Below are positions 9,806 to 22,765 of a stretch of DNA of 64,000 bases, piece after piece (within the stretch, counting starts at the first letter, position 1; every line of letters begins with the position of its first letter). Under the pieces are notes generated by a model that was not told the DNA's origin, did not search any database, and was given only the letters and a program-made list of their open reading frames with translations. This DNA is from Fibrobacter sp. UWB2. Its GTDB lineage: Bacteria; Fibrobacterota; Fibrobacteria; Fibrobacterales; Fibrobacteraceae. The DNA lies in assembly GCF_002210425.1 (NCBI RefSeq), contig NZ_MWQK01000002.1, forward strand, positions 496,001 to 560,000, given 5' to 3'. Made by a program: the position numbers and the translations under genes.

Positions 9806-9836
9806 AAAGATTATATTTGAGATGTAATTAGAGGAG
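9806..9836 (+). promoter_or_regulatory. ftsK promoter region and ribosome binding site, divergent from the cyclase gene
   Basis: ATTATATTT near 9810-9818 gives a TATATT hexamer on the plus strand and a TATAAT hexamer on the minus strand, so it could serve both divergent genes. AGAGGAG at about 9830-9836 precedes the TTG start of ftsK. Confidence 0.45.
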
Positions 9837-9843
9837 CACTTTT

Positions 9844-12800
9844 TTGGCTGCACAAAAGAAAAAAACTGTTAAGAAAACAAAGAAACCCAAAGTTGAACCG
9901 AAAAAGGATATTCAGGAGCCGGATTCGTATTTTGTAACGATGATGGTGGGCTACCTGGTATTGCTTGCGGGCATTATCCTGTTGCTTGGGTGCATAACGA
10001 TATCCATTGTGGGCGAGCACGAAAACTGGCTTGGGGATTACTTTGGCGTCATGTTCCCGAGTTTTATGACGTTCCTGTTTGGGCGTGTGGCGGTTGTCGT
10101 GTTTACGGCGGCTCTCGTCCTTTGGGGACTTTTCATTGCCATTGCATCGCTGCGTGCAAAGCTGTTGCGCTTTGCGGTTGGGGCGAGTTTGCTTGTGGTG
10201 AATGTTTCGTTTTTGATGTCGCTTAAGAATTTTGGCCTTAAGAATGTATCGAACGATGCGCTTTCGATGAGCGGTGGCGTATTGGGCGAGTTCTTTTTGC
10301 AGAACCTCGCGATTCCCGTGTTTGGGCGTGTGTCTATCGTGGCTCCGCTGATTATACTGCTTGTCACTCTTGCCTTGATTTTGGTGCTCTCTTTTGGCGT
10401 GCGTCCGAGGCATTTTAAGTTTGTCGCACAGACGATGCGCTATTTGGCAGGACTTTTTGGACGTCGCCGTAAAGACGAAGATGTTGAACCGAAGACGGAA
10501 TACGTGCCGAATATCCGCGATGAACGTACGGAGAAAAAGCAACTCCGCCGTGGCGTGGTGATGGAAGACGAGACGATGATTTTTGTCCCGGATTCCGTGA
10601 AGATGCGTAGGCGCGGGAAGGTGGAACCGTTTAACGGTCGCCATAACTGGCTCACAGACGATTTGGACGTGAACCGCTCGGAAATGCAGACGCAGATCGG
10701 GGATTCGTTTGGATTGCCTCAGTATGCGGCGGGGAATGTTCCGGGTAACGCTATGCCTGAAAATGTGGCGGCGAATGCGCCGGTTGCGAATGTAGCGAAC
10801 ACACCTGCGGGTGCAACGTTGGGCGGTGCTGACGATGATGGTGTCTATGAAGATCCGGAAATCCGTCGTTTGGAAGAAGAATTGCGTTTGAATGAACGCC
10901 ACATGAATGCACTCCAGATTCTGGAAATCAAGGAACGCATCGGTGCGCTCCGCCGTGCTCGCGATTTGATTGACTGGGAAAAGGGCCATAAGGGTCGTAT
11001 GCAGGTGAAGGGCGATGTGCGCCGTACGGCGGGCTCTGAAACTGTAGATGCTGCTATTGGGAATGTTGGTGGAAATATTCCGCCAAAGCAGACTAAGCCG
11101 ATGACCGTAGCAACTCCGAGGGTGGCAAAGCCTGCGGGTGGTGATGCGAAATCTTCGACAAGCGCCAATACGATTGTCCGTGACGCAACGCTTTCGGATT
11201 CTGTGGCAACGCGAGCCGCTATCCATGCCGAAGAGCTTTTGGGCGGCGATGGCGCCTACGTAGAGGACTTCCCGGGAAGCCCTGCGGTCGAAGATGATGA
11301 AACATATGCTCCGGTTGTTGTGACTGCCGATGAAGTGGGCGAGGACCCGACTTTCGGTGCCGATTTCGGTGCGACGATGGGTGGTGCTGGACATGTTGGC
11401 GGGAGTGCTGGTGGGAGTGCGCGCCCGGCTGTTCATTCTGCTACGATCCCTGCTGCTCCGACGGCATCTTACGACGAATACAAGATTCCTGAAATCGCAA
11501 AGATTCTCGACACGCACGAAGCGCAGACCGCGGATTACACCGAAGAAGAGCTGAACGCCATCGGCAAGATGCTCGAAGAAAAGCTTGAAAACTTCAAGGT
11601 GAAGGGCCGCGTAATCGGTTGTGAAACGGGCCCGATGATTACCCGTTTTGAAGTGGAACCGGGCCCGGGCGTGAAAGTGAGCCGCTTCTCGGCATTGCAA
11701 GAAGACTTGGCGCTCCCGCTGAAGGTCTCGTCTATTCGCATTTTGGCGCCGATTCCTGGCAAGGCCGCGGTTGGCGTTGAAATCCCGAATCGCAAGTTCC
11801 AGACCGTGTTCTGCCGTGATGTGTTCATGAGCGAAAAGTTCAAGCCCGCGCACGACAAAATTCTCGTGGCACTTGGCAAGGACATCACGGGTGAAGCGTT
11901 CACGATGGACTTGGCAAAGGCTCCGCATTTGCTGATTGCCGGTCAGACGGGTTCTGGTAAGTCTGTTTGCATTAACGCGCTCATGGCGTCGATGCTCTTT
12001 AGCAAGACTCCGGATGAACTCCGCATGATTCTCGTGGACCCGAAGGCGGTGGAACTCAAGATGTACGAAAACATCCCGCACCTTTTGGCGCCTGTCATCA
12101 CGAAGCCCGAAATTGCTATCCAGGCGCTCCAGTGGCTCTGCTACGAGATGGACCGCCGTACGGAAGTCTTGGCATCTGCAAAGGTGCGTAACATTGGCGG
12201 TTTCAACGCAAAGTTTGAAGCGGGCGAATTGCCGGATGAAGTTCCTGAAGAAGATCGTGGCCACCGCATGGCGTTTATCGTCGTGATTATCGACGAAATG
12301 GCGGACCTCATGATGGTTGCGGGCAAGGAAATCGAAAAGTCCGTGGCGCGTTTGGCGGCTAAGGCTCGTGCCGTGGGCATCCACTTGGTGCTTGCCACGC
12401 AGCGTCCGTCTGTGAAGGTCATTACGGGTATCATCAAAGCGAACTTGCCGACTCGTATTAGCTTCAAGGTGGCATCCCAGATTGACGCCCGCACGGTGAT
12501 GGACCATGCCGGTGCCGAAAAGCTCCTTGGCCGTGGCGACATGCTTTACAAGGCTGTGAATGACCCGGATCCGGTGCGCGTACACGGTGCATTCCTCAGC
12601 GATGAAGAAGCCGAACGCTTGGCCGACGCCTGCTCTGATCAGAATGTGTTCTACCCGCAGGTGGAATCGTTCGATGTCTCGGGCGGCGAAGAAGGCGATG
12701 AAGAAGGCGGTGGATCTCTCAAAAACGAAAAACTCGACAAGTTGCTTTTTGAAGTCGCGCAATGGGCCATTAGCGTGAACGGTCTTTCGACTTCGGCAGT

Positions 12801-12963
12801 GCAGCGTCACTTTAGCGTGGGTTACAGCCGTGCGGGGAAGATTGTGGACCAACTGTATGGCCTTGGTGTGTGTGGCCCGAGCAAGGGCAACTCAAAACCG
12901 CGAGCCATGCTCGTCGGAATGGACGAACTCATGCAACTCGAACGCTCCGGACGGTTCGGGTAA
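9844..12963 (+). CDS. ftsK: FtsK/SpoIIIE DNA translocase
   Basis: Septal DNA motor that clears and aligns chromosomes at division. A Lys-rich N-terminus precedes four membrane helices (about 31-55, 74-101, 108-126, 162-185). A poorly conserved linker runs to about residue 540. The motor then shows Walker A (AGQTGSGKSVCINAL, near 697-711) and Walker B (VVIIDEMADLMM). The C-terminal gamma winged helix (SAVQRHFSVGYSRAGKIVDQL) recognises polar KOPS-type DNA sites. The length of 1039 residues is in the family range. The start is TTG with a good AGAGGAG site 7-8 bases upstream; no nearby ATG is better placed. Confidence 0.96.
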   Translation: MAAQKKKTVKKTKKPKVEPKKDIQEPDSYFVTMMVGYLVLLAGIILLLGCITISIVGEHENWLGDYFGVMFPSFMTFLFGRVAVVVFTAALVLWGLFIAIASLRAKLLRFAVGASLLVVNVSFLMSLKNFGLKNVSNDALSMSGGVLGEFFLQNLAIPVFGRVSIVAPLIILLVTLALILVLSFGVRPRHFKFVAQTMRYLAGLFGRRRKDEDVEPKTEYVPNIRDERTEKKQLRRGVVMEDETMIFVPDSVKMRRRGKVEPFNGRHNWLTDDLDVNRSEMQTQIGDSFGLPQYAAGNVPGNAMPENVAANAPVANVANTPAGATLGGADDDGVYEDPEIRRLEEELRLNERHMNALQILEIKERIGALRRARDLIDWEKGHKGRMQVKGDVRRTAGSETVDAAIGNVGGNIPPKQTKPMTVATPRVAKPAGGDAKSSTSANTIVRDATLSDSVATRAAIHAEELLGGDGAYVEDFPGSPAVEDDETYAPVVVTADEVGEDPTFGADFGATMGGAGHVGGSAGGSARPAVHSATIPAAPTASYDEYKIPEIAKILDTHEAQTADYTEEELNAIGKMLEEKLENFKVKGRVIGCETGPMITRFEVEPGPGVKVSRFSALQEDLALPLKVSSIRILAPIPGKAAVGVEIPNRKFQTVFCRDVFMSEKFKPAHDKILVALGKDITGEAFTMDLAKAPHLLIAGQTGSGKSVCINALMASMLFSKTPDELRMILVDPKAVELKMYENIPHLLAPVITKPEIAIQALQWLCYEMDRRTEVLASAKVRNIGGFNAKFEAGELPDEVPEEDRGHRMAFIVVIIDEMADLMMVAGKEIEKSVARLAAKARAVGIHLVLATQRPSVKVITGIIKANLPTRISFKVASQIDARTVMDHAGAEKLLGRGDMLYKAVNDPDPVRVHGAFLSDEEAERLADACSDQNVFYPQVESFDVSGGEEGDEEGGGSLKNEKLDKLLFEVAQWAISVNGLSTSAVQRHFSVGYSRAGKIVDQLYGLGVCGPSKGNSKPRAMLVGMDELMQLERSGRFG

Positions 12964-13093
12964 GCTTTTTTGATACGTAGAACTGTGGGTATGGGGGGCG
13001 TTTTTATTTTATTTTGGCAGATTTTTGTCACATCTTTATAATGATATTATTTATATTTTCGTAGTAATATTGTAAAGGTGTGTGCTGAAGTGT
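12964..13093. promoter_or_regulatory. AT-rich leader of the PLP/NRPS operon
   Basis: The 130 bases between ftsK and the biosynthetic operon are very AT-rich, with TATAAT near 13036-13041 and TATATT near 13051-13056 as candidate -10 elements. No clear terminator for ftsK is seen, only a T-rich stretch after GGGGGGCG. Confidence 0.35.
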
Positions 13094-14236
13094 ATGTGTT
13101 TTTATCGGAGCAGTTTTATTGATCAGCTTTCAACTCCATGCTACATCGTTAGCACGGATGTGCTTTGCGAAAATTTTCAGAACATACGTGCAAAAGCTGA
13201 CCGCGTCGGTCTTTCTCTTTTGCTAGCCATGAAAGGCTTCCCTCTTGCAAAGGCTTTCCCTTTTATCAAGTCGTATGTTGATGGAATTTCTGCGTCTGGG
13301 CTTTTTGAAGCAAAGTTGGGTTCAAAGCTCGGAAAAGAAGTGCATGTCCATACGCCGGCATACAAAAAAGAAGATGCGGAAGAAATTGCGGCCTATTGCT
13401 CTCACATTGTCTTAAACGCCCCCCATCAGCTAGAGGTCTTTAGTCACGTCGCTACTAGCAAAAATGAGTTCGCCCTCCGCTTGAATCCTGAGGTTTCTGT
13501 AGTAAACGAATCGGTTTACAATCCATGCGCCCCGTATTCACGTTTTGGCCTTACAAAGGGAATGCTTTCGGCTGTAGATAGCCGTTTTTTTGAAAAGATT
13601 TCCGGCTTCCACGTTCATGCTTTGTGCGGTTCATCTTCAAAAGATTGTAACAACTTGATTTCCGCCGTTCTGGAAAACTTTTCTGACTACCTTCCTTCTG
13701 TATCCTGGATAAATCTTGGAGGAGGACAGGCTCTTCTCGAAGACGATTTTGATTTTGCTGACTTCGCCGAAAATCTGGACATTCTGCATTTAAAGTATCA
13801 CTTAAAAACCTACATTGAACCCTGCGAGTATTTGGTGATGGATGCGGGCTTTCTTCTGACCACTGTTTTGGACGTGGTGCATAATGGAAAGGACATCGCC
13901 ATTTTAGACACTTCTATTTCGTGCCATGCCTTGGATGTCCTTAAAAATTACTATCAGCTGCCCGTAATTTATCCACAGGCCGGGGAAAAGGGCTATTCCT
14001 ATCTGCTTGCAGGAAACAGCTGTCTTTCTGGCGATGTATTTGGCGAGTACTCTTTTTCTGCCCCCTTAAAGCCGGGTGACAAAATCGTCTTTGGTGACAT
14101 GGGTTCTTATTCCTTTGCACAGATGAATTATTTCAACGGCATCAATTATCCTGATATCTGTTTTTACAGCGAAAAAAACGGATTCCAGCAGATAAAATCC
14201 TTCGACTACATGAACTACGAGGCTCTCTATGACTGA
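13094..14236 (+). CDS. fold-III PLP decarboxylase, carboxynorspermidine decarboxylase-like
   Basis: An alanine-racemase-fold PLP enzyme. The PLP lysine sits in LLAMKGFPLAKAF (about residue 47). The NspC-type block LRLNPEVS...YNPCAPYSRFG, the GFHVHALCG segment, the glycine motif INLGGGQ and the C-terminal Cys/Asp region GNSCLSGDVFGEY all match carboxy(nor)spermidine decarboxylases more closely than diaminopimelate decarboxylase. The usual HTLCE ends in Gly instead of Glu here, and EPGE reads EPCE, so the substrate may differ. The start is uncertain: ATG 13094 is used, but GGAG at 13107-13110 is ideally placed for an ATT at 13118. First gene of the NRPS operon, overlapping the next gene by eight bases. 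Likely provides an amine for the pathway (inference). Confidence 0.8.
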   Translation: MCFYRSSFIDQLSTPCYIVSTDVLCENFQNIRAKADRVGLSLLLAMKGFPLAKAFPFIKSYVDGISASGLFEAKLGSKLGKEVHVHTPAYKKEDAEEIAAYCSHIVLNAPHQLEVFSHVATSKNEFALRLNPEVSVVNESVYNPCAPYSRFGLTKGMLSAVDSRFFEKISGFHVHALCGSSSKDCNNLISAVLENFSDYLPSVSWINLGGGQALLEDDFDFADFAENLDILHLKYHLKTYIEPCEYLVMDAGFLLTTVLDVVHNGKDIAILDTSISCHALDVLKNYYQLPVIYPQAGEKGYSYLLAGNSCLSGDVFGEYSFSAPLKPGDKIVFGDMGSYSFAQMNYFNGINYPDICFYSEKNGFQQIKSFDYMNYEALYD

Positions 14237-15356
14237 TTATGAAATTGAAATGGAATTGGAAGCTGCTTTAGAAGCATTACCAAAAGAAAATCCGCCGGTA
14301 AATCTTTCCGACTGGAATTCTGGTTCTGACTATAAGGAAAAGCTTGCATCAGTTGTAAAGCTTGGTAAAAAGTCTGACTTGTTTGATTATCAGTATTTCT
14401 TTCCTGACTGCATAAAAAAAGACCTTGCCCATAAATTGGGATTTTCTGATGAAGCTTACGAAAATTCTTTTTTTGCGCCTGTATCTCAAAGCACCCTTTC
14501 TATCGTAACGCTCGCTATATTCTTAAAAAAGCATAATCAAAAGGTGGGGATTGTAGAGCCGGTTTATTTTTCTGTACAAAGTTGCGTTGATGACATTGGC
14601 ATACCTTATCGCCTTTTTAGCGATTACATGGAAAACATAAACAGTACTTTTGATGTAGAAGAACTCCTACAGTCTGACTGTACTGCATTTTGGTTTACGT
14701 CTCCGGTCAACTCTTGCAGCATTTATTTTAAGGAGCGCGTTACAAAAGGAATTCAAAAACTCCTGGATGCAGGTAAAATAGTCATCTTAGATGAATCCCT
14801 ATGCGTAAACGGATATGAACTTTCAAGAGTTTTTGGAGTTCAGGAAAATCTCCTTTACATTTATAGCCCTCATAAGGCTTTGGGACTCCAAGGAATAAAA
14901 TTCTCTTACGTTGTGTGTCATACAAAATACTATGATGACATCAACAACCTTGAAGATATCTACGGAGGCTCTTTGTGCTATTCCTGCCAGGAAGGAGCAA
15001 GACATTTTGTTTCAAAGAATTTCGACGACTGCCGGGATGTTTACACAGCCTTTTGGCAGGATAACTTTCTGAAGGTGAAAAACATTGTAAAAAACTATGA
15101 TTTTGCCCGAATCTCGCCGGAAACCTTTGGCCACTATGCCATGATTTTTATCCGTTGCGCTGTAGATGACGCATCCTTTGTAGAGGCGATGAAACGCCTG
15201 ATGAAGGAAAAAGGCTATTTTGTCTATCCCGGCATTTTGCAGGGCTTTGCTCCCCCAAAAGGTTTTTGTTTTCGGATAAATATGCTTTTAAACACTAATG
15301 ATATTGAAAATGGGCTAAGGGTAGTCCTTGATTACATTAAAGACACCGGGAAATAA
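14229..15356 (+). CDS. fold-I PLP-dependent enzyme (aminotransferase class I/II-like)
   Basis: A 375-residue PLP enzyme of the aspartate aminotransferase fold. The cofactor Asp is in KIVILDESLCVNGYEL and the Schiff-base Lys in IYSPHKALGLQGIKFSY (about residue 217). A C-terminal FCFRINMLL may hold the carboxylate-binding Arg. It is divergent from housekeeping aminotransferases and I cannot name a substrate. It could be an aminotransferase, a lyase or a decarboxylase. It overlaps the upstream decarboxylase gene by eight bases and is followed 16 bases later by the NRPS start, so it clearly belongs to the same pathway. Lys codons are mostly AAA, unlike neighbouring housekeeping genes. Confidence 0.72.
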   Translation: MTDYEIEMELEAALEALPKENPPVNLSDWNSGSDYKEKLASVVKLGKKSDLFDYQYFFPDCIKKDLAHKLGFSDEAYENSFFAPVSQSTLSIVTLAIFLKKHNQKVGIVEPVYFSVQSCVDDIGIPYRLFSDYMENINSTFDVEELLQSDCTAFWFTSPVNSCSIYFKERVTKGIQKLLDAGKIVILDESLCVNGYELSRVFGVQENLLYIYSPHKALGLQGIKFSYVVCHTKYYDDINNLEDIYGGSLCYSCQEGARHFVSKNFDDCRDVYTAFWQDNFLKVKNIVKNYDFARISPETFGHYAMIFIRCAVDDASFVEAMKRLMKEKGYFVYPGILQGFAPPKGFCFRINMLLNTNDIENGLRVVLDYIKDTGK

Positions 15357-15372
15357 AGAGGCGTTTACAAGT

Positions 15373-17724
15373 ATGATTGATTTTTTGCAGAAATTTTTAG
15401 ATACAGTTGCCACATATCCTGAACGTGCAGCTTTTGTAGATAAAGACGGCGAACGCAGCACTTCTTATAAAAAACTGGACGAACTTTCTGGCCGTGTAGC
15501 TGCATTTCTGAAAAATAAAGGCTTTCAGAAAGAAGACCTGATTGCCATAAATCTTGAAAAATCCATGGAATATACAGCGGTGCAGTTAGGAGTAATAAAG
15601 GCTGGAATCGCCTTTGTGCCGCTTTCTGAAAGCATGGGGCAGGAAAGATTTAGTCATGTGCTGAAAGATTCAGGGGCAAAACTTGTTTTTGATGCGGCCG
15701 CCTGGGATCAAGCTATGGAATATGAGCCTCTGAATCCTGAGAAATGGGCGGACTCTGACGAACATGACCTTGCCTTCGTCATCTATACATCCGGAAGCAC
15801 AGGAAAACCAAAAGGGGTTGTAGAAGAATATGGTGCCTACCGTTTTACGACAAAGGGTACAGCCGAGGAAGTTGTAGAACCCTATACCATGAAGGACGAT
15901 GCCATCCGCTTTGCAAATGTAGCTCCGGTAACTTTTTCAGCCTTTACCATTATCAATGTGAGCATGCTCTATAATGCCGGTACTATTTATATAGTCTCCG
16001 ATGCTGTCGTCAAGAATCCTATGCTTTACATGCAGTTTTTAAAAGACCACAGGATTGACGCAATGTTTCTGACGGCCTCGATGATAAAGCCTCTTTCTGA
16101 AAACAGAAGCCTTTCCCCCAAGGCGATTATGCTTTCATCCGAACGGGTAAGCGATGTGTACAGCACGAAGTTCGCTGTTTTGAACCTCTACTGCAATACG
16201 GAACTGATGTCTACAGCCTGCAACTTTGTGATTGACAAGCCTTACTCAAACACTCCCATCGGCAGGAACTGTTCCTATACGGACATGATTCTGCTCGATG
16301 ACGGTAAAGTTTCGGAAAAAGAAGGTGAAATCTGCCTCTGTCTGCCTTATTTCAGGGGCTACCTGAACCAGCAGGAAGAGACAGAGAAGGCTTTTGTCTC
16401 GATTGGCGGGAAAAAGTTCTTCTGCACGAGGGACGTTGCCCGCCGCGGAGAAGACGGACTTCTGTATGTGCTGGGTCGGGCAGACGATATGGTAAAGATT
16501 AACGGAAACCGGGTGGAACCAGCCGAAGTAGAGACAGTACTGAAAAAAGTTCTGGAAACAAAAATGGTTGCTGTAAAAGCCTTTGAAAAAAAAGGAAAAT
16601 ATTATCTCTGCGCCTATTATCAGAAAGAATACTCTATTCCTGTGGAAACCATCCGCGCCTCGCTAAAGCCCTTGCTCCCCGCCTATATGATCCCCTCATT
16701 TTTTGTGCAGATGAAAAAGATTCCCCTGAATATAAACGGAAAAATCGACAGGAAAAATCTACTCATCCCGAATTTTGTTTCTCAAAATACATATGTTGCA
16801 CCTCGGACAGAATGTGAAAAAATACTCTGCGATGCATTCAAGGAAGCCCTTGAAGACTATGAGGAAATTGAAAAAATCGGCATTGACGATGACTTCTTTT
16901 TAATGGGAGGCGACAGCGTAAGTGCCATGGAGCTTATGCTTGCTTGTGAGGAGTTTAAGTTGACCGTGCCGCTTATTTATGAAAAACGTACTGTCCGTGC
17001 TCTTGCCGAAGTGCTAGATAAGAAGATGTCTTTAAGTTCCCCAGCCACAGCAAAAGAGACTCCAGAAGAAAAACTCCCCCTTATCCTTTCTCAAAAGGAG
17101 GTGCTTGATTATGAAGCTTGTCTCCCAGACACCATCGTAGACAATGTTCCCTTGTATTTGACTTTACGTTCGGATCTTGACGAAAAAAAACTCTATCAAG
17201 CTCTGAAAAAAGTGATTGAGGCGCACCCGGCCTTACGCACCGTGATTGAAAAGGACAGGGAACAAGGCTATGTGCAGTATCAAAAACAGAATATTGACGA
17301 AGCAATAAGCGTAGAGGCTATGTCAGAAAAAGAACTTGACGCTATCGTCGAAAACTTTGGAGAAATCTTCGCTCTTGATGGAAGCCCACTTTTCAGATGC
17401 CGCATCATCAGAACAGAAAAACGGCTTGTTCTTCTTTTAGAAGTTCATCACGCTATTGCAGACGGACTTTCCCTGCATATTTTCGCTTCCGATATAGAAA
17501 AGGCTTATCGAGGCGAAGTTCTTACAAAAGACTGCTACAATGAGTTTATAAAAGAAATCTTCGCAGCCGAAAAAGATACATCCCTGCTTTCATTGACTGC
17601 AAACCAAAATTCCACACTCACTTTATCAAATGGCAAAATCTGTTATTGTGCGCCAAAGCATGATTTTGAAAAAGAAGATAAGGTCGCTTGTCAAGTAATA
17701 GCAATCCCTTGTTCAAAAAAATAA
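15373..17724 (+). CDS. nonribosomal peptide synthetase, A-T-C module, upstream part (condensation domain interrupted)
   Basis: Activates an acid as its adenylate and loads it on a carrier domain. Adenylation motifs are A3 YTSGSTGKPKG (about residue 138), A5 NLYCNTELMST, A7 LGRADDMVKINGNRVEPAE (near 368) and A10 NINGKIDRK. The thiolation site is MGGDS (phosphopantetheine Ser near 515). A condensation domain follows with the active motif HHAIADG (near 692). That domain stops half way at a TAA right after seven adenines; the missing half is encoded in the -1 frame just downstream. In A4 the usual Asp that binds a substrate alpha-amino group is not evident (PVTFSAF), so a non-alpha-amino acid is possible. 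Start ATG 15373 is chosen because AGAGG lies upstream, rather than an earlier in-frame ATG inside the preceding gene. Confidence 0.85.
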   Translation: MIDFLQKFLDTVATYPERAAFVDKDGERSTSYKKLDELSGRVAAFLKNKGFQKEDLIAINLEKSMEYTAVQLGVIKAGIAFVPLSESMGQERFSHVLKDSGAKLVFDAAAWDQAMEYEPLNPEKWADSDEHDLAFVIYTSGSTGKPKGVVEEYGAYRFTTKGTAEEVVEPYTMKDDAIRFANVAPVTFSAFTIINVSMLYNAGTIYIVSDAVVKNPMLYMQFLKDHRIDAMFLTASMIKPLSENRSLSPKAIMLSSERVSDVYSTKFAVLNLYCNTELMSTACNFVIDKPYSNTPIGRNCSYTDMILLDDGKVSEKEGEICLCLPYFRGYLNQQEETEKAFVSIGGKKFFCTRDVARRGEDGLLYVLGRADDMVKINGNRVEPAEVETVLKKVLETKMVAVKAFEKKGKYYLCAYYQKEYSIPVETIRASLKPLLPAYMIPSFFVQMKKIPLNINGKIDRKNLLIPNFVSQNTYVAPRTECEKILCDAFKEALEDYEEIEKIGIDDDFFLMGGDSVSAMELMLACEEFKLTVPLIYEKRTVRALAEVLDKKMSLSSPATAKETPEEKLPLILSQKEVLDYEACLPDTIVDNVPLYLTLRSDLDEKKLYQALKKVIEAHPALRTVIEKDREQGYVQYQKQNIDEAISVEAMSEKELDAIVENFGEIFALDGSPLFRCRIIRTEKRLVLLLEVHHAIADGLSLHIFASDIEKAYRGEVLTKDCYNEFIKEIFAAEKDTSLLSLTANQNSTLTLSNGKICYCAPKHDFEKEDKVACQVIAIPCSKK

Positions 17725-18320
17725 GAGATTTTTGTTTCTCGCATTCCGTCAGCCAGAACGATTTTTATCTCTTTGCCGCGGCTCTTTCCCTGGCCCTTTA
17801 CAATGACTGTGAACAAGTTGCTTTTGACTGGATTTGGAATGGTAGAGATTCTGCAAAATATGCAGATACCATTGGTTATTTCTTGAAGGAAATTTTTATT
17901 GCGCTGGAACTTCCTCAAAGTACCCCCGTTCTTGACGCTCTTATAACTTGCAAAAATAAAATTTTACAATCCCTTTCCAGTGCAAATGACATGTCCCAAA
18001 AGAGGGTTCAGCCAGATGAAAATAAAATCTGCTTTATTTTTCAGGGTGAAATGTACGTTCCGAACACCCACGGCTTTGTCACTTCTGCCAAATGGATTGA
18101 AAATTCGGATAGGGCTGCAGAAAGCATCATGGACATCGAGGTTAAGGTAGATGATGAAAAAACCGAAGTTTCTTTTGAATACGACGGCGGAAAATACAAG
18201 AGAGAAAGTATCGCGACTTTTTCGAAAGTATTTGTCTTTTGCTGCCAAATGATTTTACAAATAGAAGAAAATGCCGGGCTTACGATTGGGGAAGTAAAAA
18301 AACAATGGCAAAAAAGATAA
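17688..18320 (+). CDS. second half of the NRPS condensation domain (-1 frame continuation)
   Basis: About 200 residues that complete the condensation domain begun upstream: DFYLFAAALSLALY, then VAFDWIWNGRDSAKY and IGYFLKEIFIALEL match the C5-C6 part of NRPS condensation domains. There is no ATG near its beginning, only a TTG at 17688 without a ribosome site, and the homology starts at the A7 run (17715-17721). The simplest reading is that it is made as a fusion with the upstream frame by -1 slippage, or that the gene is frameshifted. A separately translated half domain is less likely. Confidence 0.7.
   Translation: MSSNSNPLFKKIRDFCFSHSVSQNDFYLFAAALSLALYNDCEQVAFDWIWNGRDSAKYADTIGYFLKEIFIALELPQSTPVLDALITCKNKILQSLSSANDMSQKRVQPDENKICFIFQGEMYVPNTHGFVTSAKWIENSDRAAESIMDIEVKVDDEKTEVSFEYDGGKYKRESIATFSKVFVFCCQMILQIEENAGLTIGEVKKQWQKR
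17715..17724 (+). other. A7 slippery run followed by stop codon inside the NRPS condensation domain
   Basis: Zero-frame codons read TCA AAA AAA TAA. Moving back one base within the seven adenines gives AAA AAA ATA AGA and continues in frame through the rest of the condensation domain. This fits the A_AAA_AAA type of slippery heptamer, but also transcriptional slippage, a real one-base mutation or a sequencing error. Confidence 0.6.
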
Positions 18321-18344
18321 CTTTTAAGAATGCAAGGAGTCTAT

Positions 18345-18644
18345 ATGGAAATTAAGTCTAATTTGAATGGTGAAGAATTGACGGTGGAACTTTCGGGGGA
18401 GCTGAATGCAATGACGGCTCCACTGCTTTCGACATTCCTCGCTCCGCATCTTGAAAAGATAAAATCCCTTGTTTTTGACTTTAAGGAATGTGATTTTGTT
18501 TCGTCGGCAGGGATCCGCGTGCTGCTCTCTTCGTTTAAGACGCTGAAAAAGAACCAGGGCGACATGCGACTTGAAAATGTGGGTCCCAACTTTAAGGAAG
18601 TTCTCGAAGCGACGGGGCTGGATGTAGCGTTCGGTATATTGTAG
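18345..18644 (+). CDS. STAS-domain anti-sigma-factor antagonist-like protein
   Basis: A 99-residue single STAS domain of the RsbV/SpoIIAA type. It shows the edge strand ELTVELSGELNAMTAP and the switch helix start FVSSAGIRVLLSS, whose Ser is the usual phosphorylation site. AAGGAG at 18332-18337 fixes the ATG at 18345. In known systems such proteins bind an anti-sigma kinase when unphosphorylated and are reset by a PP2C phosphatase. Here the next gene is a transporter with an RsbW-like tail and the gene after it is a PP2C phosphatase, so the three can form one partner-switching circuit (inference). Confidence 0.88.
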   Translation: MEIKSNLNGEELTVELSGELNAMTAPLLSTFLAPHLEKIKSLVFDFKECDFVSSAGIRVLLSSFKTLKKNQGDMRLENVGPNFKEVLEATGLDVAFGIL

Positions 18645-18652
18645 TAGGTAAA

Positions 18653-20377
18653 ATGTTCAAGACATTTCTTTCAAGAAAGTTCTTTTCACTATTGCTGTCG
18701 AGCTCAATTAGCCTACTCGTCATTACGGTATTGGCGCTATCGGATACATTGATTGCGGGTGTCATGTTGGGCGAAGAAGCCGTTTCGGCCATTTGTCTAG
18801 TTGTCCCGGCTTATTCCTTGGCTGGCTTTGCTGGGTGCCTGATTTCATTGGGTGTTCCTATTATTTACAGTCGGGCTATGGGCGAATTCAATAAGGAAAG
18901 GGCGGATCGTTGTTTTGCGTTTGGACTCTTTATGGCTGTGGTGATGGGATTAATCCTGTATACCGTTTTTATGCTGTTTGGGGATGCCTATCTTCGTTTC
19001 TATGAGCCTTCTACAAGCGTTTTCAATGCGGCAAAGGATTATTTCTTTTGGTATAAGTACACAATCTTGTTGTTGCCTATTATGACGTTAATGGACGAAA
19101 TGGTCCTTACCGACGGCGATGAAACTTTATCGATGGTTTCAGGGATTGTACAGATTGTTGGAAATATCGTCTGCTCGATTGTTTTTGCAAAATTTGTAGG
19201 TATTGAGGGGATTGGGTTTGGATCGTTTATTGGAACTTTGGTTGCGTTACTTGTTGCTTTTGCGCATCTTCTTCGTAAAGGCAATTCTTTGAAATTGGGT
19301 TTTTATTTTTCGTTAAAATGGCTTGTCGATGTCGTGAAGTATAGCGCAATAGATGCGGGAACATATCTTTTCTTGGCTTGTTTCACCGCCGTAATGAACC
19401 GTTTTATCACCTTCGCTTATGGTCCCGAAATGCTTGTGCTTGGAGCCATCATCCTTTTTGTTAAAGAGGTACAAATTGTGTTTGATGGCATAGGGGAGGC
19501 GTTTACTCCGCTGATGAACATTTACCTAGGCGAAGAATCTTATGACGGTGTAAAAAAAATCTATGGCCTTTCTAGAAAAACAGCTGTTGTCGAAGGAGTG
19601 GTTTTGACCCTGCTGATGATATTGGTTGCGCCTTTTATTGTCAAACTTTATGACATTTCCGACTCTGTTGCCTATTCTTATGCAGTCGGGGGACTTCGAA
19701 TTGAAGCCTTGGGGTTAGTTTTCTTGAGTTTATTGTATCTGTTGAGTTCCTACTATTTGCTCATAGACAAAATTAAGCTTGGATTTGTCATGAGTGCGCT
19801 CCGGGATGTTCTCGTCGTGACTCCGGCGTGTATAGCTCTTGGATATTTCTTTGGCATATATGGAATGTTTGCCGGTGTTGCCGTAGGCCCTGCCATTGCC
19901 TATGCGATTTCGGTTCTGTACATCCGCTTCCGGTATGGAAAAGATAATTACCCTTTATTGCTTTCGGAAAAGTTAAAGGGTTTTAAACATAAATTTTATG
20001 AGTTTAAACTAAATCCGGAGTCGATTGTTGGGACTCAGCATCAAGTAGAAAAATTCCTTGTAGAAAATAATATTGAACAGAAAACCATTTCGAAAGCGAA
20101 GTTGCTTATAGAAGACCTTTATATGCTCATTTATGAAAAAAATGGCGTGGATAAAGCCGTTTATGCGGAATGTACTGTCATTATTCGAGAAACGGACGTG
20201 CAGATTATTACTAAGGATGATGGTGTTCTGTTTGATTTGTCCAATGAAGATGTCGTAGCTGGATCGATTGTTGAATTTATGGTTTCTGGCTACATGGAAA
20301 AATTAAAGGATAACAAAAAATACTTGACAACCATGAGTTATAACCGGAATACGTTCAGGATTAACTACGAGGGGTAA
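18653..20377 (+). CDS. MATE-family transporter fused to a degenerate RsbW/HATPase-like C-terminal domain
   Basis: About the first 440 residues form a 12-helix MATE (NorM/DinF-type) exporter, starting with a helix containing LLVITVLALSDTLIAGVML. A cytoplasmic tail of ~130 residues follows. It resembles RsbW-type histidine-kinase-like ATPases: a helix IEDLYMLIYEKNG where the N-box lies, two strands, then a G1-like KDDGVLFDLSNED. The N-box Asn needed for Mg-ATP is not seen, so the tail may bind the STAS protein without acting as a kinase. It starts eight bases after the STAS gene and ends two bases before the phosphatase gene. Probable role: export of the pathway product, gated by partner switching (inference). 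Confidence 0.82.
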   Translation: MFKTFLSRKFFSLLLSSSISLLVITVLALSDTLIAGVMLGEEAVSAICLVVPAYSLAGFAGCLISLGVPIIYSRAMGEFNKERADRCFAFGLFMAVVMGLILYTVFMLFGDAYLRFYEPSTSVFNAAKDYFFWYKYTILLLPIMTLMDEMVLTDGDETLSMVSGIVQIVGNIVCSIVFAKFVGIEGIGFGSFIGTLVALLVAFAHLLRKGNSLKLGFYFSLKWLVDVVKYSAIDAGTYLFLACFTAVMNRFITFAYGPEMLVLGAIILFVKEVQIVFDGIGEAFTPLMNIYLGEESYDGVKKIYGLSRKTAVVEGVVLTLLMILVAPFIVKLYDISDSVAYSYAVGGLRIEALGLVFLSLLYLLSSYYLLIDKIKLGFVMSALRDVLVVTPACIALGYFFGIYGMFAGVAVGPAIAYAISVLYIRFRYGKDNYPLLLSEKLKGFKHKFYEFKLNPESIVGTQHQVEKFLVENNIEQKTISKAKLLIEDLYMLIYEKNGVDKAVYAECTVIIRETDVQIITKDDGVLFDLSNEDVVAGSIVEFMVSGYMEKLKDNKKYLTTMSYNRNTFRINYEG

Positions 20378-20379
20378 AT

Positions 20380-21834
20380 ATGATTGCTGACAATATAACC
20401 GAGACACTTTTTGTCGAAATATCGCTCTTTTCAGTACTGTTGCTTGTTTTTATGCTGTACAATAACGTTGTACTGTATAAGATAAGCATGAAGGATAAGC
20501 TGTCACTTACCCTTATTTCGGCTATTATAGTTTCTGTATTCGATGGAATATGGCATTTTGTAGAGGGCGCTGGACGTCCGGTTTTAGAATATACTTGCGC
20601 CTACGTTTATGCAATCGGTCTCGTATTTGGAACATCGGTGTTCGCTTGGTTCACTCTAGATCGTTTTGAAATTGTTTTAAAATCGAAGAAGTTGTATGGT
20701 CTTTTATTTGTTGCCCCTATTGTTTTGACGACCCTTTTATGTCTTTCTACACCATGGACGAATTTGGTGTATTCCTATGATGAACATGGCATCGAGTATA
20801 TGCCATTGTTTGATTATTTTGTAGCGCCCATTTCCTTTCTTTATATGGGTGTCTCGATTTTTCTAGCGATTTATTATTTGGTTTTGCACCGTAAAAAGAG
20901 AAGTGAAAATATCTCTTATGCCAGAAATTTGTTGATATTTGCTGTGTTGACAGTCAGCGTAATAGCTGTGCAGACTTATGTCCTTGAAATTGATGAAAAC
21001 TACGTGGTGATAAGCTTTGCTTGGGCGGTAGGCTTTGTCTTTTTTACGACATACGTGAATACGGAAAGGTTTGTTAAAAGTCGCGAAAGAATTGCTGCGG
21101 TGGAGTCGGATTTACAGCTGGCCGCAAATATCCAGTCGGGGGCGCTCCCTACGGTGGTGCATGCGTTTTCGAAACACCCCGAACTCGATGTTTTTGCATC
21201 AATGACCACGGCAAAAGAAGTGGGTGGTGATTTCTACGATTTCTTTGAAATAGACGGTACGCATATTTGCTTTGTCATTGCCGATGTGTCGGGAAAAGGT
21301 GTGCCGGCGGCACTCTTCATGATGGTTGTGAAAACGATGATTCGTGACCATGCATCCATGAAACTTTCTACGGCAGAGATATTCAATGATGTGAATCGAC
21401 TTTTATGTGAGAACAATGCTGAAGAAATGTTTGCTACGGCTTGGATAGGAATTTTGGATACTAAAACAAAGGTCATGAAATGTACCAATGCGGGGCATAA
21501 TGCCGTATGCTTTGCCAAAAAAGACGGCTCGTTCGAGTTCCTGCGGCAACGCCATGGGGTGTTCCTCGCCGGGTTTGACACTACGCAGTATAAAGAATCT
21601 GAAATTCAGTTTGAAAGCGGAGATTGCCTTTTCCTTTATACCGATGGTCTTACTGAAGCTCACAATGCTTCCGCAGAACTTTATGGTGAAGAACGACTTT
21701 TGAAAAAATTAAATTCCATCAAAATTCGTGGCGGTGAAAAATTCTTGAGGGAAATCTCGGATGACGTGAATGTATTCTCTGAAGGAACAGATCCCTTTGA
21801 TGACCTTACAATGATGGTCCTCAAGGTGGACTAA
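20380..21834 (+). CDS. 7-TM SpoIIE/PP2C-type serine phosphatase (RsbU-like)
   Basis: Seven predicted membrane helices fill the first ~230 residues, a sensor-like arrangement. A short coiled linker (ERIAAVESDLQLAANIQSGALP) leads into a PPM/SpoIIE phosphatase domain. Metal-binding Asp residues are present in KEVGGDFYDFF, FVIADVSGKGVPAALF, LYTDGLTEAHN and DPFDDLTMMV. Such enzymes dephosphorylate STAS proteins, and the adjacent STAS gene is the obvious substrate. It is the last gene of the operon; ispE begins 25 bases downstream, with no terminator seen between them, so read-through is possible. Confidence 0.92.
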   Translation: MIADNITETLFVEISLFSVLLLVFMLYNNVVLYKISMKDKLSLTLISAIIVSVFDGIWHFVEGAGRPVLEYTCAYVYAIGLVFGTSVFAWFTLDRFEIVLKSKKLYGLLFVAPIVLTTLLCLSTPWTNLVYSYDEHGIEYMPLFDYFVAPISFLYMGVSIFLAIYYLVLHRKKRSENISYARNLLIFAVLTVSVIAVQTYVLEIDENYVVISFAWAVGFVFFTTYVNTERFVKSRERIAAVESDLQLAANIQSGALPTVVHAFSKHPELDVFASMTTAKEVGGDFYDFFEIDGTHICFVIADVSGKGVPAALFMMVVKTMIRDHASMKLSTAEIFNDVNRLLCENNAEEMFATAWIGILDTKTKVMKCTNAGHNAVCFAKKDGSFEFLRQRHGVFLAGFDTTQYKESEIQFESGDCLFLYTDGLTEAHNASAELYGEERLLKKLNSIKIRGGEKFLREISDDVNVFSEGTDPFDDLTMMVLKVD

Positions 21835-21859
21835 AAATTTTTTTGCTAGGTTTGTGGTC

Positions 21860-22765
21860 ATGAAAGAATACGCTCCTGCAAAAATCAATTTGTTTTTAGA
21901 TGTCATCCGCAAGCGCGAAGACGGTTACCACGATTTGGGAACCGTGTTCCAGACTGTCGATGCCGGTGATACAGTCGAAGCGACGCTCCGTGAAGATGGC
22001 GAACTCCACCTGACGTACAACGAACCGCAGAATTACCCGCTGGAATCCGACCTCGTGTTCAAGGCCGCGAAGGCCCTCAAGGAATATGCCAATTGCGCTC
22101 TTGGTGCGGACATCCACCTCACGAAGGTCATGCCGCTTGGGGCAGGTCTTGGTGGTGGCAGTGCCGATGCCGCGGCGACGCTCCGTTTGCTCAACCGCCT
22201 GTGGAATTTGGACTATCCGTTTGAGGTTTTGGAATCTATCGGCGCTCGGCTTGGCGCCGACGTGCCGTTCCTCGTTCGTGGCGGAACCGCTTTTGCTGAA
22301 GGTATTGGCGAGCGTTTGACGTTCGTGGAACCGCTCGAACTCCCGGAGGGGGCCGCTCTCCTCATTGCGACTCCGCTCGATTCTGTTCCGACGAAGGATG
22401 CCTATGCGGGGGTCCCGAAGTCTGGGCCCGACCGCTGGGAGCAGTACAAAGCGGCGTGGAAATCAAAAATGAATCCTCCGTTGTGTGGAGATCCTATTGC
22501 TGAACCGCTTTCGGAAACGTTTAAGCAGATTGTCAATCCCGAAATGTGTTTCAATGCTTTCGAAATCTCGGTTTTCCCGACGCACCCGCTTGTTGCCGAG
22601 ATGAAGCAGAAATTCATTGAACTTGGGGCTGATGTCGCCTTGATGTCTGGTTCGGGCGCTTCCGTTTTCGGGATTTTCAAGACCAAGGAACTCGCTGAAA
22701 AGGCTGCCGCCGTTCTAAAGCCGATTTCCCGCTACCAGACCGTCACCAAATTCTGGCATAGGTAG
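21860..22765 (+). CDS. ispE: 4-diphosphocytidyl-2-C-methyl-D-erythritol kinase
   Basis: ATP-dependent kinase of the MEP isoprenoid pathway, GHMP family. Seen are the N-terminal YAPAKINLFLDVIRKREDGYHDL, the ATP loop MPLGAGLGGGSADAAATL (about 92-109), and the C-terminal glycine motif MSGSGASVFGIF. The 301-residue length is slightly above average, with a short insertion after PLDSVPTKDAYAG. ATG 21860 is preferred to the GTG two codons earlier because it begins the conserved KEYAPAK segment. Confidence 0.96.
   Translation: MKEYAPAKINLFLDVIRKREDGYHDLGTVFQTVDAGDTVEATLREDGELHLTYNEPQNYPLESDLVFKAAKALKEYANCALGADIHLTKVMPLGAGLGGGSADAAATLRLLNRLWNLDYPFEVLESIGARLGADVPFLVRGGTAFAEGIGERLTFVEPLELPEGAALLIATPLDSVPTKDAYAGVPKSGPDRWEQYKAAWKSKMNPPLCGDPIAEPLSETFKQIVNPEMCFNAFEISVFPTHPLVAEMKQKFIELGADVALMSGSGASVFGIFKTKELAEKAAAVLKPISRYQTVTKFWHR

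Follow-up and report, generated by a model that had tools for sequence, protein, structure and literature searches.

Why would a bacterium place a small biosynthetic gene set, an exporter and a partner-switching circuit in one operon? The question is raised by a locus of Fibrobacter sp. UWB2, contained in a 64,000-nucleotide stretch that was analysed as a whole (the window; C2:496001-560000 of a 3.53-Mb genome). Between FtsK (9844-12963) and IspE (21854-22765), six gene functions are spread over seven same-strand frames: an NspC-family decarboxylase, a second pyridoxal phosphate (PLP) enzyme termed PLP1, a nonribosomal peptide synthetase (NRPS), a STAS protein, a MATE transporter with an RsbW-like tail, and a seven-transmembrane (7TM) PP2C phosphatase. 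We read the locus as an exchangeable small-molecule operon whose partner switch would be aimed at the exporter, and give this model as a whole a probability of roughly 0.55. It is built on gene content, recurrence, the fold and motif loss of the tail, replacement of the biosynthetic cassette and recombination in the adenylation core, all of which are established below.

The seven frames listed in a preliminary description of this DNA are all present, run in one direction and overlap or nearly abut, with -37 (overlap) to +24 bases between successive frames. Every family named there was confirmed by Pfam/NCBIfam domains, which are, in frame order, Orn_DAP_Arg_deC; Aminotran_1_2; AMP-binding, PP-binding and Condensation; the Condensation remainder; STAS; MatE; and HisKA_7TM with SpoIIE (PP2C). 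Two points of that list did not stand, as the seventh frame is an NRPS fragment and the 'ATPase' tail of the MATE protein lacks ATP-binding residues. The features are as follows (L, G and C numbers are our handles for loci, genomes and contigs).

13082-14236, plus strand: NspC-family fold-III PLP decarboxylase, the operon paralogue, 376-384 amino acids by start (TIGR01047, E 3e-99)
14229-15356, plus strand: PLP1, fold-I PLP enzyme of the aminotransferase superfamily (PF00155; GntC-like at distance)
15373-17724, plus strand (frame 15328-17724): NRPS adenylation (A) domain, thiolation (T) domain and first half of the condensation (C) domain, with YTSGSTGKPKG, NGKID, GGDS and HHAIADG; closed early by a frameshift
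15733-16392, plus strand: adenylation core, residues 121-340, a recombinant segment whose nearest relatives are Fibrobacter L055 and the copies in spirochaetes
17688-18320, plus strand: second half of the C domain in a shifted frame (PF00668 positions 238-434), joined to the NRPS in L031, L032 and L066
17715-17721, plus strand: A-run with 7 A against 8 in L031, L032 and L066, the site of the C-domain frameshift
18345-18644, plus strand (frame 18330/18345-18644): RsbV/SpoIIAA-like STAS protein (PF01740, E 6e-16; TIGR00377 over its cut-off)
18653-19969, plus strand (frame 18653-20377): MATE transporter domain (PF01554; predicted structure with pLDDT 87.6; Foldseek match to MATE 4mlb, E 6e-13)
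19970-20377, plus strand: C-terminal RsbW/SpoIIAB-like domain, ATP-dead (VIA-align Z 12.1 to RsbW 6m37 and 11.8 to SpoIIAB 1tid)
20380-21834, plus strand: 7TM sensor with PP2C/SpoIIE phosphatase (PF07228, E 7e-47; PF16927)

Recurrence of the gene set

A condensation domain was found at 17 loci in 41 Fibrobacter genomes, 13 of them encoding single-module A-T-C NRPSs and four encoding large, unlinked NRPSs. Each of the single-module NRPSs (13/13) adjoins MATE-tail and PP2C genes. The large multi-module loci, which have no MATE-tail linkage, lie in four genomes (G001:C2, G004:C4, G061:C10 and G007:C34). The named relatives sharing the locus carry Fibrobacter labels. The module occurs in the following gene orders:

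Type 1, NspC-PLP1-NRPS-STAS-MATE-PP2C: window, L031, L032, L066
Type 2, STAS-PLP1-NRPS-MATE-PP2C: L033, L034, L046-L049
Type 3, NRPS-STAS-MATE-PP2C: L035, L036
Type 4, NRPS divergent from MATE-(STAS)-PP2C: L037, L038, L071

Across phyla, 84,980 genome representatives were scanned with a MATE-tail alignment, and the loci were then annotated locally. Outside Fibrobacter, the module was found in Spirochaetia (L056, L060, L061 and L063) and in Lachnospiraceae (L062, L064, L068 and L092), the latter with the order MATE-PP2C-STAS-NRPS or similar. The scan of these representatives returned no archaeal locus; loci L065 and L069 end too early for their module content to be judged. Most of these genomes come from ruminants, the forestomach being named in many of the record titles. 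The recurrence that the preliminary description had proposed looking for is therefore found, with NRPS, STAS, MATE-tail and PP2C genes travelling together across species and phyla. Co-occurrence of all six functions holds in part: NRPS, MATE and PP2C, usually with STAS, form the constant core, and NspC and PLP1 are dispensable, since NspC is missing from type 2, and both are missing from types 3 and 4 and the Lachnospiraceae loci.

The 180-kb contig of L063 is not mis-binned Fibrobacter, because its release factor 1 is only 50% identical to that of the window genome. Locus L055 (CAMOEE010000126.1), labelled Treponema, was rejected as evidence of transfer to that genus because its contig opens with a Fibrobacter FtsK C-terminus (positions 1-90) and is thus mis-binned; at this locus NspC carries an internal deletion and a further STAS gene is present. 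Phage carriage found no support, as a scan of viral contigs gave no relative. Plasmid carriage was likewise set aside: the only plasmid match was a distant MATE-tail gene on Selenomonas ruminantium pSRC2 (L107 5890-7623), which lies not beside an NRPS but directly after the gene for a carboxylate-amine ligase of the GCS2 family, likewise an enzyme that forms amides, and has the same degenerate tail (EEIGM...RDNG...NYNR). In one Lachnospiraceae locus, a GH3 acyl-acid amido synthetase (L067 14016-15728) stands beside MATE-PP2C-STAS-RsbW, in the usual place of the NRPS.

The exporter tail and the proposed partner switch

What is the domain fused to the exporter? In AlphaFold models of the MATE protein and its tail, the top structural neighbours of the tail are RsbW, SpoIIAB and UsfX bound to STAS partners (VIA-align Z 11-12), and profile comparison of the tail with stand-alone kinases gave a probability of 93.6 (E 2e-7). 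The N-box Asn, which binds Mg/ATP, is Met in 19/19 aligned tails, and the G2 box (GxGLG / GGLGIF) is absent from the same 19. An active ATPase is disfavoured by these losses, so that the MATE-ATPase fusion first described is retained as an RsbW/SpoIIAB-fold tail on a MATE transporter and not as an ATPase. Twenty-nine proteins, down to ~26% identity, all share residues E487, M491, N497, D522, G524, T560, N564 and R565, which indicates that the tail is under selection. As an ATP-dead kinase relative, the tail is more likely a docking target for STAS than the kinase.

More distant MATE-tail genes (27-29% identity) accompany STAS and PP2C genes, with no NRPS, at L042 7053-11424 and L043 7024-11445. 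The L042 phosphatase has the architecture dCache-HAMP-SpoIIE-HATPase_c_2, and two GGDEF genes adjoin the L043 locus. In two Spirochaetia loci, L084 and L086, MATE-tail genes stand in tandem next to genes of the GNAT and metallo-beta-lactamase/beta-CASP families.

The phosphosite motif SSAG(I/L)R is kept in all compared module STAS proteins, and the phosphatase retains the PP2C metal motifs VGGDxYD, DVSGKG, TDGxTEA and DD(L)T. In L061, L063 and L067, the PP2C or STAS gene is followed directly by an intact stand-alone kinase gene, and the window genome encodes an intact RsbW-type kinase on contig C4, adjoining another STAS gene. The N-box Asn and the G2 box are kept in the kinases at L061:13204-13623, L067:13534-13953 and G000 C4:9550-9915. 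Together with the motif loss of the tail, these features point to a likely layout with a separate kinase, PP2C as membrane sensor and phosphatase, STAS as messenger and the MATE tail as target.

The model would work as follows. The single-module NRPS would activate a carboxylic acid and load it onto the T domain, and the C domain would release it by forming an amide with a free amine; in the window version, NspC and PLP1 would supply or trim the amine or the acid. The product would leave via the MATE exporter. A separate RsbW-type kinase, whose gene adjoins the module in certain Spirochaetia and Lachnospiraceae and lies elsewhere in the window genome, would phosphorylate STAS, and the 7TM PP2C would sense a signal in the membrane and dephosphorylate it. 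The RsbW/SpoIIAB-fold tail, its ATP binding lost, would serve as the docking site, and STAS on or off the tail would gate export. A narrower version, that it is dephosphorylated STAS that docks on the MATE-fused pseudokinase and gates export of a small amide signal or toxin, with bacteria of several phyla in herbivore guts swapping cassette and adenylation core but retaining the gated exporter, is held tentatively, at somewhat less than even odds.

Several points weigh against the model. The Spirochaetia loci L056 and L060 have NRPS-MATE with neither STAS nor PP2C next to it, and the Lachnospiraceae locus L092 lacks STAS. Many loci come from metagenome-assembled genomes, whose labels can be wrong, as for the 'Treponema' of L055. 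The window operon contains no intact RsbW-type kinase (N, G1 and G2 boxes). The argument about the substrate of the A domain, given below, is one from sequence. Binding of STAS to the tail, phosphorylation and transport are steps that we infer, as are the gating, its direction and the chemistry of the product. Even so, export under partner-switch control, as first proposed, is the best reading because the NRPS gene travels with those for STAS, MATE-tail and PP2C; the tail as kinase, which that proposal implied, is the part we modify.

Could the switch instead act on transcription? STAS and PP2C might work through an unseen sigma/anti-sigma pair, leaving the tail vestigial; partner switches mostly govern sigma factors, a free-standing RsbW with a STAS of its own is encoded in the window genome, and regulation of NRPS expression has been proposed for Methanobrevibacter ruminantium (PMC2812497). 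No sigma factor is encoded among the seven frames of the operon, however, and the invariant residues of the tail speak for selection on it rather than decay. We consider this explanation unlikely. Still more doubtful is a tail that serves as the circuit's own kinase and phosphorylates STAS through an unusual ATP site. The shared RsbW/SpoIIAB fold and the lack of any other kinase gene in Fibrobacter operons would fit such a role, but the substituted N box and missing G2 box do not, and canonical kinases are available beside the module in three loci and on contig C4 of the window genome. That the genes are clustered merely by horizontal transfer, with the MATE protein a general multidrug pump unrelated to the NRPS product, is very improbable: other MATE-tail relatives do sit near unrelated genes, but linkage in Fibrobacter is complete and persists through differing gene orders in three phyla, and one Lachnospiraceae locus swaps the NRPS for another amide-forming enzyme.

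The biosynthetic cassette and its exchange

Exchange of the biosynthetic genes is seen at the same FtsK...IspE site in L035. Its STAS, MATE and PP2C proteins are 92%, 80% and 79% identical to those of the window; its NRPS is only 37% identical and it has no PLP genes. The biosynthetic cassette has thus been replaced and the exporter and switch genes kept. Within the NRPS, the window adenylation core shows 67% amino-acid identity to L031, 87-88% to the Spirochaetia copies L061/L063 and 94% to L055, whereas the T-C half matches L031 at 98% (with identity at 120/120 4-fold sites) and L061/L063 at 42%. Identity to L061 at 4-fold sites is 0.62 in the core against 0.26-0.43 in other module genes, which argues for recombination of the core and not constraint alone; the tree for this comparison of NRPS parts was built with FastTree. 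Judged from these identities, the core of the window was exchanged separately. Nearly the same core is also carried by the mis-binned Fibrobacter L055, so that the spirochaetes are no more than candidate direct donors.

The frameshift concerns the same gene. In the Fibrobacter relatives L031, L032 and L066, the NRPS is a single intact A-T-C frame of 982 amino acids, and the extra frame of the window results from a one-nucleotide deletion in the A-run at 17715-17721; seven independent genes are thereby ruled out. The missing A may reflect a genuine mutation, phase variation or a fault of the assembly, and the NRPS frame of the window strain appears broken unless the base is an assembly error or slippage bypasses it. 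The T-C part carries 16 changes private to the window, distributed 3:6:7 over the codon positions, a number too small to separate gene decay from errors of sequencing.

What would the enzyme make? The A, T and C catalytic motifs are all present, with the T-domain Ser and the catalytic His of the C domain intact, and a phosphopantetheinyl transferase is encoded in the genome. K517 (NGKxD) is kept in all module A domains. Asp235, which normally holds the alpha-amine of the substrate, occurs in no module A domain compared, the position being Ser in the window and Val/Ala/Ile/Leu (also Ser) in others; the acid activated is therefore probably not an ordinary alpha-amino acid. In Spirochaetia, the contiguous upstream genes encode a 2-hydroxyacid dehydrogenase, an aminotransferase and a flavodoxin-fold oxidoreductase, which hint, speculatively, at a 2-hydroxy or 2-keto acid. 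As the C domain is last and no thioesterase follows, amide release onto a free amine would be the simplest scheme from what is known of NRPSs.

The NspC-family protein scores 332 bits against TIGR01047, under the 409-bit equivalog cut-off, and matches carboxynorspermidine decarboxylase 9eaf in the PDB (E 1e-86), with the catalytic Lys and CLxGD retained. It shares 72-74% identity with the module copies of spirochaetes and 35% with the other NspC of the genome; given this paralogue, a housekeeping polyamine role is unlikely. PLP1 matches the GntC profile at E 1e-12, far under its cut-off, and no PDB sequence. Its residues N161, D188, K216 and R349 are invariant in 11 homologues, so PLP1 should act on an amino acid. 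The preliminary description had the decarboxylase make the amine. This is one option only, because a related decarboxylase, FigC, comes into play in the making of rhizoferrin once the amide has been formed (PMC7857480); by analogy, the window enzyme may make an amine or decarboxylate after coupling.

Upstream of the operon lies a sigma-70-like promoter, TTGGCA-17-TATAAT (13014-13042, plus strand), which matches the consensus at 11/12 positions and was called by consensus only. The break in transcription that the preliminary description had considered between the NRPS and STAS genes is not indicated, as the terminator scan lists no site there, and one transcription unit is plausible on this evidence. 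The operon is AT-rich, with a GC content of 0.39-0.46 against 0.54-0.55 for the neighbouring FtsK and IspE. In several Fibrobacter genomes, a block encoding an outer-membrane protein, an MMPL exporter and a LolA-like protein adjoins the module in either orientation (L033 12358-18328, L066 13179-19184); it seems to be adjacent to the module without belonging to it. A 1013-codon open frame exactly antisense to FtsK (9811-12852, minus strand) is most likely a coding-bias artefact.

Comparison with known systems

Is such a gene set new? Searches of the open-access literature returned no description of an RsbW-fold tail on a MATE protein or its loss of ATP residues, or of the cross-phylum recurrence and the cassette and core exchange; nor did they yield anything relevant on MATE-HATPase fusions or on partner switching directed at a transporter. 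If the model is true, partner switching, best known for transcription, acts directly on a transporter via a dead kinase fold, and E-x-x-x-M ... DDG ... YNR is a sequence signature for finding such pumps. The small-molecule system would be common to gut phyla and a direct target for rumen metabolite discovery.

The claim that no described pathway has this gene set needs qualification. In M. ruminantium M1, mru0066-0071 was reported in 2010 to hold the NRPS mru0068 with MatE, an anti-sigma antagonist and two serine phosphatases, and a second cluster, mru0512-0516, holds a phosphopantetheinyl transferase with STAS, a phosphatase and an RsbW-type kinase; the authors suggested a bacterial origin and sensing or export roles for the NRPS clusters (PMC2812497). 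The association of NRPS, MatE, STAS and phosphatase functions was thus already known from one rumen organism (PMC2812497). That organism is, however, an archaeon, its NRPS is a two-module C-A-T enzyme with a terminal release domain, and NspC/PLP genes were not reported.

For the decarboxylase, the N-citrylornithine decarboxylase FigC/FslC offers a likeness as an ornithine decarboxylase-related fold-III enzyme repurposed in a natural-product pathway (PMC7857480). It belongs to another subfamily (29 bits for the window NspC against the FslC profile), and its partner is an NRPS-independent siderophore synthetase. The precolibactin exporter ClbM shares the MATE fold and an NRPS linkage, and its structure (4z3n) was in the Foldseek comparison of the window MATE. 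To our knowledge, ClbM has no RsbW-like tail and no associated STAS or PP2C protein.

With the canonical switches RsbU-RsbV-RsbW and SpoIIE-SpoIIAA-SpoIIAB, the operon shares a STAS protein with a phosphosite, a PP2C phosphatase and an RsbW-fold domain. Unlike in those switches, the RsbW fold of the window is fused to a transporter and has lost its ATP residues, and the operon has no sigma factor. Resemblance extends to the SiaA/B/C system of Pseudomonas, as the structural comparison of the tail also retrieved SiaB (Z 9.2). Both SiaB and BtrW are kinases in their own right and are not known to be fused to a transporter. Partner switching aimed at a process other than sigma-factor control has a precedent in BtrU/V/W of Bordetella, which acts on type III secretion (PMC8256260).

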